DNA from: a virus | Length of the DNA stretch: 27,220 nucleotides | Strand: one strand, 5' to 3' | IMG/VR virus record: IMGVR_UViG_3300047382_000219 | Location: 1 to 27,220 of that record | Part shown: positions 14,481 to 23,255 of the stretch, piece by piece | How positions within the stretch are numbered: position 1 is the stretch's first letter | Layout: each line of letters opens with the position of its first letter | Program-made: the position numbers and the translations under genes | Notes under the pieces: model-generated | Told to the model about the DNA's origin: nothing | Database searches by the model: none | Seen by the model: the letters and a program-made list of their open reading frames with translations, nothing else

Positions 14481-15191
14481 TTAGAATATTTCATGCCGTA
14501 ATAATGCTTTGGTAATTTTAATAATATTTTCACTTGCAATAAATGCCATTAATTGCATATCAATGTGTTCTTTGCAATATATCACATAGGAATTATAGTT
14601 ACTATGTCGAAATACATAGGATAAATTATATCCTGTAGAAGAATAGACAGTAGAAGAATAATTTGGATCTTTATTGAACTTTCTTAAATTATTATTCAAA
14701 AAATAATTATTATTATCAATGTATGATTCATTTAATAACGGTCCTAGTGTAACATGTAGATTATTATTGTATCTTAACTGAATTTTGTATCTGAATTTTT
14801 TATGATACAGTTTATTTTTTATTTCAACATTATCTTCATATCGTTCAAACTGTTCTGCCAAATTATCAATGAAAGGGACATGGTGCTCTTTTTGTAAATC
14901 GGGATACCGATTTGTGGCACGTTCAAATACTTTCTTTTCCTCAAAATATACATGTGTCATTGAACTATTTGTAAACTTTGTCCCTGGTTGACTTCTAAGA
15001 AATCGTATACAATTTGCCCTAGAAACTTGATCCTCTACATTTGTGGGATAATCAAACCACCAACCATATCCAGTTCTATTTTTATATGATTCAATAATTT
15101 CCTTAGATGGAAATCCATATAGGCGTTTATATGCTATTTTATAAGGATATTTTTTGTAAAATAATTTTGTAGACTCAAAAGTTCTAATCAT
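14481..15191 (-). CDS. Unknown 236-aa protein coupled to ClpA
   Basis: I do not recognise a family. The protein begins MIRTFESTKLFYKKYPYKI and is basic and Tyr/Asn/Lys-rich, with a stretch YIDNNNYFLNNNLRKFN near residue 160. It has no membrane segment or signal. Its ATG overlaps the clpA-like stop by 8 bases (ATGATTAG), so translation is probably coupled. Position suggests a link to the ClpA/DnaJ pair (adaptor, substrate or regulator), but this is inference only. Confidence 0.75.
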   Translation of the reverse strand: MIRTFESTKLFYKKYPYKIAYKRLYGFPSKEIIESYKNRTGYGWWFDYPTNVEDQVSRANCIRFLRSQPGTKFTNSSMTHVYFEEKKVFERATNRYPDLQKEHHVPFIDNLAEQFERYEDNVEIKNKLYHKKFRYKIQLRYNNNLHVTLGPLLNESYIDNNNYFLNNNLRKFNKDPNYSSTVYSSTGYNLSYVFRHSNYNSYVIYCKEHIDMQLMAFIASENIIKITKALLRHEIF

Positions 15192-17427
15192 AATTAAACA
15201 CTATTTCATCTTCATGAACTTTAACAACTACTTTGCCTCCATTCATTAGTTTTCCAAAAAGAATTTCTTTGGATAATGGCTTTTTAATATTGTCATTAAT
15301 AACTCGTTGAAGAGGTCTTGCTCCCATATCTGGTATGTAGCCACGTTCACGCAACCATGCCTTGGCGCCAAGAGTCAATTCAATTACTACACGTTTGTCT
15401 GATAACATCACATTTAATTCTTTAATTGATTTATCAACAATCATATCAATATGTTCACGCTGCAATGAAACAAATTCAACCATCGCATCTAATCTATTTC
15501 TGAATTCAGGTGAAAAGAACTTTTTTACAGCCTGTAGTGATGCATCGTCATTATCATTACTAAACCCAATTGCCAACTTAGATTTCTGTGATGCACCTAG
15601 ATTACTAGTCATAATTAGAATAGCATTACTGAAATCAGCAACTTTGCCGGTTGAACTTGTTAGTCTACCATCATCCATGACTTGTAAAAGTAAGTTCATA
15701 ACACTAGGATGTGCTTTCTCAACTTCGTCTAGCAGAATAATACAATTTGGTGTTTCTTCTACATCATTGATCAATTTGCCAGACCCAGCACCACCTTCTG
15801 CATGTCCAACATATCCGGGAGGTGCACCTATTAGTTTCGATACACTGTGTTGTTCCATGTATTCACTCATATCATATTTTCGAAGTGTTACATCTAAATT
15901 ACTTGCGAGTTGGCGACATAGTTCTGTTTTTCCTGTGCCGGTAGGACCTACAAATAAGAAACTACCAATTGGTTTATTTGTTGGTCGCATTCCTGATTTA
16001 GCAACTAGAATAGATTCTACTAATGTGCTTACTGCTTTATTTTGACCAAATAAATTTGTTCTTATATTTGATTCCAGATTTGCATAATTCGTATTTTCTT
16101 TTGCATCAATCATGTCTAATGGTATGCGTGTAATCTTTGATACTGCATGTTCAATTGCACTGTTGTCAATGATACCTGAAATATTATTTAATTTTTGCCT
16201 TGCACCCGCAACATCAATAATATCAATTGCACGATCTGGATTAAATTTGCCATGCATATAACGTTCTGCCAAGTCTACAGCATAATCAAGTGCATTATCA
16301 TCATATGGATTACCATGAAATTCTTCGTAGTACTTTTTAAGACCTTTAACAATAAGTTTAGTATCTTCTTTGCTGGGCTGCTCAACTAATACTTTTTGAA
16401 AGCGGCGCTGTAATGCTCTATCTTTTTCAAAGTTTTCACGATATTCTTCGCTTGTTGTCGCACCTATACATAGCAACTTACCACCTGCCAATAGTGGCTT
16501 CAATAAATTAGCGATATCAATATTTGATCCACCTGCTGATCCTGCACCCATAATCATATGAATCTCATCCATAAAAAGAATTATATTATCTTTTTCTGAG
16601 AGTTGTTCAAAAACTATTTTAGCACGTTCTTCAAATTCGCCACGGTATTTAGTTCCTGCTACCATACCTGTAATATCAAGTGAGTACACTATTTTGTTTT
16701 TTAGAATGTCTGGACAGTTATCATTTACAATATTTAATGCAATACCTTCTGCTATTGCAGTTTTACCTACTCCCGGCTCACCTACAATAATGACATTATT
16801 TTTCTTTCTTCTCGCCAACACTTCTGTAATTTCAATGATTTCTTCACTTCTACCAATTACAGGATCAATTTTTCCGTCTGCTGCTGCTTTATTCAAATTT
16901 TCACAAAAATCTTCAAATTTAATTTGCCCTTGCCCTTGTGGTCCTGCCATGCCTGCTGGTCCACGTTGCGTTCTAGCCTGAAAGATTTCATAAAAATCTT
17001 TTTCAATAATACTAATGACTTTATCACGTGATGCACCATTTTTCTTTAAAATATAATAAGCATGGGATGATGGTTCACTTAATAATGAGACAATTAAATC
17101 TTTACAGAACATTTCTTTTCTGCCAGTAAAAATAACTTGTGCAACTGCACGATTAAAAACACGATCTATTGCTAAAGTATGTCTTGGACCAGTGGGCTCC
17201 ATTATCTCCACTGTGAGATCATCCCGTTGTGCCAAGTTTTCTTCAAGTTCTCTAATAATATTAATAATATCACACTTCATTTTTTCTAATAATGCTAGAA
17301 CATCTTTTTCCTCTATAAGAGTATAAAGTAAATGTTCTAATGTCACATATTCATGTGATAATGATGCCGCCTTAATAATCGATTGATCCAAGACCCAATT
17401 AACTCTATTACTATAATTATTACTCAT
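15184..17427 (-). CDS. clpA: ClpA-type AAA+ unfoldase (Clp ATPase)
   Basis: 747 residues, close to ClpA (about 758). A Clp N-domain spans about 1-145, followed by a Gly/Pro/Gln linker (153-170). D1 has Walker A GEPGVGKT (216-223), pore loop KYRG (260-263) and Walker B LFMDEIH (284-290). D2 has Walker A GPTGTGKT (494-501), pore loop GYVG (538-541), Walker B LLDEVEK (565-571) and sensor-2 GARPLQR (702-708). No ClpB-type M-domain coiled coil is present between D1 and D2, so it is ClpA/ClpC-like, not a disaggregase. I620-G621-F622 sits where ClpA has its IGL ClpP-docking tripeptide. It should unfold proteins for ClpP, which must come from the host because none is visible here. It overlaps the dnaJ-like gene by 8 bases. 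Confidence 0.95.
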   Translation of the reverse strand: MSNNYSNRVNWVLDQSIIKAASLSHEYVTLEHLLYTLIEEKDVLALLEKMKCDIINIIRELEENLAQRDDLTVEIMEPTGPRHTLAIDRVFNRAVAQVIFTGRKEMFCKDLIVSLLSEPSSHAYYILKKNGASRDKVISIIEKDFYEIFQARTQRGPAGMAGPQGQGQIKFEDFCENLNKAAADGKIDPVIGRSEEIIEITEVLARRKKNNVIIVGEPGVGKTAIAEGIALNIVNDNCPDILKNKIVYSLDITGMVAGTKYRGEFEERAKIVFEQLSEKDNIILFMDEIHMIMGAGSAGGSNIDIANLLKPLLAGGKLLCIGATTSEEYRENFEKDRALQRRFQKVLVEQPSKEDTKLIVKGLKKYYEEFHGNPYDDNALDYAVDLAERYMHGKFNPDRAIDIIDVAGARQKLNNISGIIDNSAIEHAVSKITRIPLDMIDAKENTNYANLESNIRTNLFGQNKAVSTLVESILVAKSGMRPTNKPIGSFLFVGPTGTGKTELCRQLASNLDVTLRKYDMSEYMEQHSVSKLIGAPPGYVGHAEGGAGSGKLINDVEETPNCIILLDEVEKAHPSVMNLLLQVMDDGRLTSSTGKVADFSNAILIMTSNLGASQKSKLAIGFSNDNDDASLQAVKKFFSPEFRNRLDAMVEFVSLQREHIDMIVDKSIKELNVMLSDKRVVIELTLGAKAWLRERGYIPDMGARPLQRVINDNIKKPLSKEILFGKLMNGGKVVVKVHEDEIVFNYD

Positions 17428-22774: not shown

Positions 22775-22865
22775 TGGTAGAAGTGGGTGGATTCGAACCA
22801 CCTCAAAGGCGCTAATCTGGCGCAAAGAGCATATAAGACTCCTCTGACTACCAAGTCTCACTTCC
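22775..22865 (-). tRNA. Class II tRNA-like gene, anticodon TAT (isotype uncertain)
   Basis: 91 nt with CCA and A73. Acceptor GGAAGTG/CACTTCT (G1-U72) and T arm GGTGG-TTCGAAT-CCACC are sound. A long variable region with a GCGC/GCGC stem marks class II. From GGTAG onward the spacing equals that of tRNA-Leu(TAA) in this window, putting the loop CTTATAT in the anticodon position (TAT, reading AUA). The anticodon stem GGAGT/GCTCT has two G-U pairs. The 5' half of the D arm is about four bases shorter than in the Leu gene. It could be tRNA-Ile(TAT), a Leu tRNA with an altered anticodon, or a decaying gene. Confidence 0.65.
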
Positions 22866-22872
22866 AATTCGT

Positions 22873-22949
22873 TGGTGCTCCCGGTAGGACTCGAACCTAC
22901 GACCGACCCGTTATGAGCGGGTGGCTCTAACCAACTGAGCTACAGGAGC
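22873..22949 (-). tRNA. tRNA-Met (or Ile2), anticodon CAT
   Basis: 77 nt with CCA. Acceptor GCTCCTG/CGGGAGC, A73, anticodon stem ACCCG/CGGGT with loop CTCATAA (CAT). It is not an initiator: G1 pairs with C72. From sequence alone, elongator Met and lysidine-modified Ile2 cannot be separated. Confidence 0.9.
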
Positions 22950-23168: not shown

Positions 23169-23255
23169 TGGTACTCGTACCCGGACTTGAACCGGGACGC
23201 CTATAAAGGCAACAGATTTTAAGTCTGGCGTGTCTACCGATTCCACCATACGAGC
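23169..23255 (-). tRNA. tRNA-Leu, anticodon TAA
   Basis: 87 nt with CCA. Acceptor GCTCGTA/TACGAGT (G1-U72), A73, long variable arm, D loop with CGGTAGACAC. The loop CTTAAAA gives TAA, reading UUA, a common codon in AT-rich genomes. The outermost anticodon-stem pair is mismatched (C-U). Confidence 0.9.

Follow-up and report, generated by a model that had tools for sequence, protein, structure and literature searches.

The codon AUA poses a problem to bacteria: lysidine is normally needed to read it, and a tRNA with the anticodon UAU risks misreading AUG. Unusual tRNAs with this anticodon have been described in nematodes and in environmental DNA. The nematode nev-tRNA-Ile(UAU) is a class II tRNA that is charged with leucine in vitro, with no detectable mistranslation in worms (PMC4300185). 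Allo-tRNAs have 8/4 or 9/3 acceptor/T branches, and most carry SerRS determinants and accept serine (PMC7609411); their UAU group (Mukai et al. 2017, as reviewed in PMC7609411) has an 8/4 branch, disrupted stems and a link to transposons, and is unusable for translation in E. coli. LeuRS makes no use of the anticodon, and its core determinants are U8:A14, A15-U48 and A20a (PMC9976931). A search of open-licence papers returned no description of a phage family of class II tRNA(UAU).

The window analysed here is a stretch of 27,220 nucleotides, positions 1 to 27,220 of the IMG/VR virus record IMGVR_UViG_3300047382_000219. It encodes a Clp ATPase-type protein (15184-17427, minus strand) whose closest relatives, at 44-47% identity, are in the jumbo phages Phosso, MIJ3/PA5oct and Atu_ph07, a similarity pointing to a large myovirus. 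Within a cluster of nine tRNAs, ARAGORN called a tRNA-Ile(tat) at 22775-22865 on the minus strand, as are all tRNA features below, and the minimum-energy fold of this segment was a full cloverleaf (-29.7 kcal/mol). The 7-bp acceptor stem pairs GGAAGUG (22859-22865), which opens with a G1.U72 wobble, with CACUUCU, followed by the discriminator A73 and an encoded CCA (22775-22785). A single linker base, A (22858), joins the acceptor stem to the D arm GACU-UGGU-AGUC (22846-22857; 4 bp and a 4-nt loop), and there is no U8. The anticodon arm (22824-22844) has 7 bp, with invariant G.U pairs close to its base, and a CUUAUAU loop in which the anticodon UAU (22833-22835), reading AUA, precedes an invariant A37. 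It is followed by a long variable arm, GCGC-CAGAUUA-GCGC (22809-22823; 4 bp, loop conserved), a CUUUGA linker (22803-22808) whose UUGA is conserved in the alignment, and the T arm GGUGG-UUCGAAU-CCACC (22786-22802), with a 5-bp stem. The family model R1 scored this copy at 107.4 bits (E 7e-27). The gene is real and intact, and ARAGORN and the fold bear out the preliminary description of a tRNA with CCA, good acceptor and T arms, a long variable arm and anticodon UAU.

The gene is a copy of a widespread, mostly unannotated phage tRNA family. Its 91-nt sequence is identical in seven other contigs, which together with the size of the family and its covarying stems puts the gene well past a chance occurrence, and blastn found unannotated relatives in the cyanophages S-SRM01 and S-SKS1. 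Pattern scans of IMG/VR matched at least 119 and at least 120 contigs, nearly all of them true members, and copies with a visible anticodon came to at least 172, representing at least 89 distinct sequences. Among the matches listed, the acceptor and T stems were fully paired (12 pairs) and A73 was present in 172 of 172 copies, G1.U72 was present in 168, and CCA directly followed the gene in 82. Members were found in IMG/VR contigs, S-SKS1, S-SRM01, the jumbo-phage type of the window and two Nostoc genomes; the Sinorhizobium jumbo phage Phosso has a divergent member (88.7 bits), annotated as tRNA-Ile(tat). All members share A73 and the 7/5 acceptor/T branch, and their 4-bp D stem carries a short NGGN-type loop; a long anticodon stem and long variable arm were seen in all aligned sequences. 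Model R1 gave the family 98-112 bits (Phosso 89) and ordinary tRNAs 38.5 bits or less, tRNA-Leu genes being the nearest of these. The same model found no member in Atu_ph07, PA5oct, P-SSM2 or T4, and class II tRNA(UAU) was absent from six further T4-like cyanophages. One 284-kb virus contig holds two copies (G004:C1:11781-11868 and 117588-117675). The published S-SRM01 list, made with tRNAscan-SE 2.0, contains 11 tRNAs and not this one, and the S-SKS1 database record also omits it.

A cellular origin was considered and rejected. The pattern scan of genome contigs gave only two matches, both in Nostoc; two cyanobacterial samplings gave one match each, in the same Nostoc, with no family member in the other sampled cyanobacteria, and none was found in the plasmids searched. 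On the contigs with the Nostoc copies (L129:1249-1336 and L130:3064-3151) there is also a gene for a tyrosine-recombinase-like integrase, which hints at a mobile element.

The Rfam tRNA model RF00005 (gathering score 29) finds both tRNAs flanking the window gene but did not match the gene itself or the copies at loci L003, L012, L022, L129 and L160. At a relaxed threshold the best Rfam match was tRNA-Sec, RF01852, with 28 bits for the window copy, 32.2 for Nostoc and 31.1 for L012 against a cut-off of 47, and none of the Rfam models folded the gene as an ordinary tRNA-Leu with another anticodon. Like tRNA-Sec, the family lacks U8, has a short UGGU-type D loop and is long in both anticodon stem and variable arm; tRNA-Sec, however, has the anticodon UCA and an 8-bp acceptor stem, whereas the family has UAU, a 7-bp acceptor stem, a 4-bp D stem and A73. 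Allo-tRNAs(UAU) resemble it in their long variable arm, tRNA-Sec-like build, anticodon and occurrence in environmental DNA. Unlike them, the family has a 7/5 branch, fully paired in all 172 copies among the matches listed, has A73 and is sited in phage tRNA operons. Likened by description, nev-tRNA-Ile(UAU) is also class II, conserved and Leu-like in some features, with anticodon UAU and no detectable effect on the meaning of AUA, but it is encoded by eukaryotic nuclear genes and has known in vitro leucine charging, whereas the phage family is known from sequence alone.

Ordinary tRNAs offer further points of comparison. The tRNA-Leu(UAA) of the same cluster (23169-23255), called by ARAGORN and the Rfam tRNA model, is an ordinary class II tRNA; tRNA-Leu(UAA) shares with the family its class, A73 and G1.U72, which is frequent in phages, and differs in anticodon, D arm and core, and variable-arm length. 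The two genes had been said to align base for base in spacing from the D-loop GGTAG onward. The match extends to the anticodon, 12 nt in each gene, but not past it: from there to the 3' end the UAU tRNA has 61 nt versus 53, its variable region being larger by 8 nt. The D arm, previously called shortened, is indeed shorter than that of tRNA-Leu, but it shows no local deletion: it is the conserved GACU-NGGN-AGUC arm of the family, with one linker base in place of U8-N9. Bacterial tRNA-Ile2 (CAU) likewise reads AUA and has A73, A35, U36 and A37, but its C34 is modified by TilS and its body is class I. The class I tRNAs(UAU) of cyanophages S-PM2 and S-SM2 share the anticodon, G1.U72 and A73, yet have an ordinary class I body with a short variable loop.

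To examine selection on the structure, covariation was computed on 46 distinct family sequences and 27 base pairs. Pairing was retained in 99.4% of cells, double-sided changes occurred at 18 of the 27 pairs compared to 5-12 in slid structures, and the covariation score was 0.503 compared to 0.06-0.10. Compensatory changes were seen in four of five helices: the acceptor, anticodon, variable and T stems covary (helices 1, 3, 4 and 5). The D stem GACU/AGUC (identical in 46 of 46 sequences), two G.U pairs close to the base of the anticodon stem and most of the variable-arm loop never varied, and these parts may make up an invariable tertiary core or a surface contacted by a protein. A long-range helix, UCAGAG/CUUUGA, suited several members (also L011 and Nostoc) and failed in the L012-type clade and L160; it was dropped because the 7-bp anticodon stem accounts for the same changes.

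The anticodon was UAU in every copy collected among the matches listed. IMG/VR patterns with a non-U34, non-A35 or non-U36 anticodon, which demand the most frequent forms of the D arm and variable loop and whose spacing was verified on the window, returned no family member, and a search that left both D arm and anticodon free again gave UAU in every member among the matches listed. In the 46-sequence alignment U33 and A37 were also invariant, and position 38 was free to vary. A fixed U33-UAU-A37 beside a drifting position 38 is what codon reading needs and would be hard to explain for an idle anticodon.

Operon context points the same way. In S-SKS1, S-SRM01, L027 and L049, the class II tRNA(UAU) precedes a CAU tRNA and tRNA-Leu(UAA). 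The same operon slot is filled in S-PM2 by a class I tRNA(UAU) unrelated to the family, giving the order UAU - CAU - Leu(UAA); S-SM2 has a UAU-CAU pair with a class I UAU tRNA, and L070, L058 and L076 hold UAU tRNAs of both classes. One slot filled by unrelated bodies with only the anticodon in common is the best argument that AUA reading is the selected function. Class I UAU tRNAs of cyanophages were located at L328:3382-3456 (S-PM2), L365:2480-2553 (S-SM2), L070:2261-2334 and L041:5551-5623.

The CAU neighbour in the window (22873-22949), called Met by ARAGORN, has a CUCAUAA loop and the pairs C4-G69 and C5-G68. Judged by these loop and acceptor features it is probably a lysidine-type tRNA-Ile2, also because S-PM2 has distinct CAU tRNAs of initiator-like and of elongator-like type in addition to the one in the slot. 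A probable Ile2-type CAU tRNA was present in the complete or near-complete carriers S-SKS1, S-SRM01, G002, G009 and Phosso, and some carriers also have a class I UAU tRNA, so the class II tRNA(UAU) is not the sole AUA reader. The idea, drawn from partial loci, that no other tRNA reads AUA in large arrays was dropped, as the full genomes G002 and G009 carry a probable Ile2 gene. Other unusual tRNAs were seen in carriers. Several have a class I tRNA-Leu(UAA), lacking the long variable arm (L002:5658-5730, L070:2336-2410, L063:2641-2713), and L172 and L074 also have short tRNA-Leu genes (UAG, UAA or CAA). The pieces of Phosso that were read (loci L274-L293) gave two ARAGORN tRNA-Pyl(CUA) calls among 62 tRNA calls, which are possible amber suppressors; a tRNA-Pyl has been reported in its relative, phage AP-J-162 (PMC11242549).

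What AUA encodes in carriers was assessed from homologous proteins. AUA sites in S-SKS1, S-SRM01, G002, G009, Phosso and the window aligned with Ile/Val, as did AUU and AUC sites: the aligned residues were I at 30-37%, V at 17-22% and L at 9-18%, a pattern unlike that of Leu codons, which aligned with Leu at about 30-60%. By log-likelihood, Ile was ahead of Leu by 833 over 1573 sites, and Ser and Met models were rejected. By a mixture fit, the Leu-like share of AUA was 0.11 in carriers, with none in three non-carriers; once six more non-carrier cyanophages were included, however, the Leu excess was 0.07-0.09 in five non-carrier cyanophages versus 0.04-0.05 in the cyanophage carriers. A carrier-specific Leu trace was dropped, and the small excess is no sign of Leu decoding because it is equal or larger in phages without class II tRNA(UAU); weaker conservation at AUA sites accounts for it. 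An AUA/UUA code swap, prompted by the class I tRNA-Leu(UAA) genes, was rejected as UUA remains Leu, and an initiator-like role on AUA starts as AUA start codons were not enriched. From these alignments AUA is read as isoleucine in carriers, which gives the meaning of the codon and not the amino acid on the class II tRNA(UAU). Relative AUA use in the Synechococcus phages sampled was 0.28-0.33 without an AUA tRNA, 0.39-0.45 with a class I UAU tRNA and 0.49-0.61 in class II carriers, a gradient confounded with G+C, which also differs between phages. In Phosso, AUA makes up only 3-5% of Ile codons.

Charging was considered through identity determinants. The Ile-type A73, A35, U36 and A37 were invariant in the family alignment and in the 172 copies among the matches listed. 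Position 34, where IleRS uses G or lysidine, is always U, and the minor IleRS determinants are mostly absent (C4-G69 in 7/46, C29-G41 in 4/46). No phage-encoded class Ia synthetase was found in 18 carriers, so a host enzyme must act. Class Ia enzymes dock on the tRNA face opposite the variable loop, and the long arm would therefore not have to block IleRS. E. coli IleRS was reportedly found by Taniguchi in 2013 to charge UAU tRNA poorly, and such a tRNA is said to be able to misread AUG. Among the options of the preliminary description (leucine through LeuRS, charging by IleRS, or decay), charging by IleRS agrees best with the codon data.

We consider it probable that this is a functional phage tRNA of a distinct class II family that reads AUA through UAU and delivers isoleucine; its expression, its Ile charging by a host synthetase (most likely IleRS) and its independence of TilS are inferred. 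Its D, anticodon and variable arms resemble those of tRNA-Sec and are set on a 7/5 acceptor/T branch. With U rather than C as the first anticodon base, it would not need the host enzyme TilS, whose role is to turn C34 of tRNA-Ile2 into lysidine, and AU-rich phages would gain a lysidine-independent AUA reader alongside the probable CAU Ile2 gene.

An unlikely, though not negligible, alternative is an expressed tRNA-like RNA that is mainly non-decoding, acting as a decoy, spare or regulator; its odd body might, for example, escape or attract host enzymes that cut or modify Ile tRNAs, and so withstand or absorb them. Its co-occurrence with the probable Ile2(CAU) and, in some carriers, with a UAU tRNA of class I, its retention in Phosso despite rare AUA, a conservation of the loop and D stem beyond base-pairing needs, and the related allo-tRNA(UAU) genes unusable for E. 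coli translation (PMC7609411) would all suit such a role. The strictly kept U33-UAU-A37 with its drifting position 38 argues against it, as do the encoded CCA in 82/172 copies among the matches listed, the siting in tRNA operons and the sharing of the operon slot with class I UAU tRNAs; in an unsystematic look, no consistently linked protein gene was noticed. Decay of a tRNA-Leu into a pseudogene is barely conceivable. The D arm is shorter than in tRNA-Leu, the Rfam tRNA model misses the window copy, and one relative, L011:6128-6220, looks broken: its T arm is disrupted, its anticodon arm contains one base too many and ARAGORN does not call it. That copy is probably a decayed family member. 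For the window copy, however, the covariation refutes this reading, as compensatory changes in four of five helices, the invariant anticodon and the identical copies in seven contigs show the opposite of what pseudogene homologues would.

Leucine at AUA, wholly or partly, through LeuRS charging is improbable. The tRNA does have A73, a class II shape and the G1.U72 of many phage tRNA-Leu genes, its nearest ordinary relatives by model R1 are tRNA-Leu, LeuRS ignores the anticodon (PMC9976931), and nev-tRNA-Ile(UAU) sets a precedent for in vitro Leu charging (PMC4300185). But AUA aligns as Ile in all carriers, the Leu excess is no smaller in non-carriers, and U8:A14, A15-U48 and A20a are missing: the linker is a single base (usually A), the D loop measures 3-5 nt and A stands before the T stem. 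The earlier suggestion of Leu at AUA thus found no support in either codon data or LeuRS core determinants, most of which the family lacks. Charging by another synthetase, SerRS (as for allo-tRNAs) or MetRS, giving a missense or specialised tRNA used for instance at AUA starts, is more improbable still. The tRNA-Sec-like shape, the mostly Ser-accepting allo-tRNAs and a weak 1-72 pair resembling that of initiators would fit, but the discriminator is A73 and not G73, Ser and Met models fail at AUA sites, AUA starts are not enriched and Phosso has a strong C1-G72 pair.

Delivery of isoleucine at AUA by the class II tRNA(UAU) remains our preferred reading. Its fuller form, which we advance tentatively as possible but somewhat doubtful, is that this phage-specific tRNA class, with a core of its own, is a true class II isoleucine tRNA of the bacterial kind, which a host synthetase recognises by determinants that belong to neither the known IleRS nor the known LeuRS set, and that it reads AUA without lysidine. 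The family also marks a blind spot of annotation, as the published S-SRM01 list and the S-SKS1 record leave it out and the Rfam tRNA model misses the members tested. The cultured carriers S-SKS1, S-SRM01 and Phosso make charging directly testable. If the reading is true, a family that always carries UAU on a body unlike that of any known isoleucine tRNA would extend the rules of tRNA identity and provide a second, independent counterpart to the nematode nev-tRNA-Ile(UAU) puzzle.
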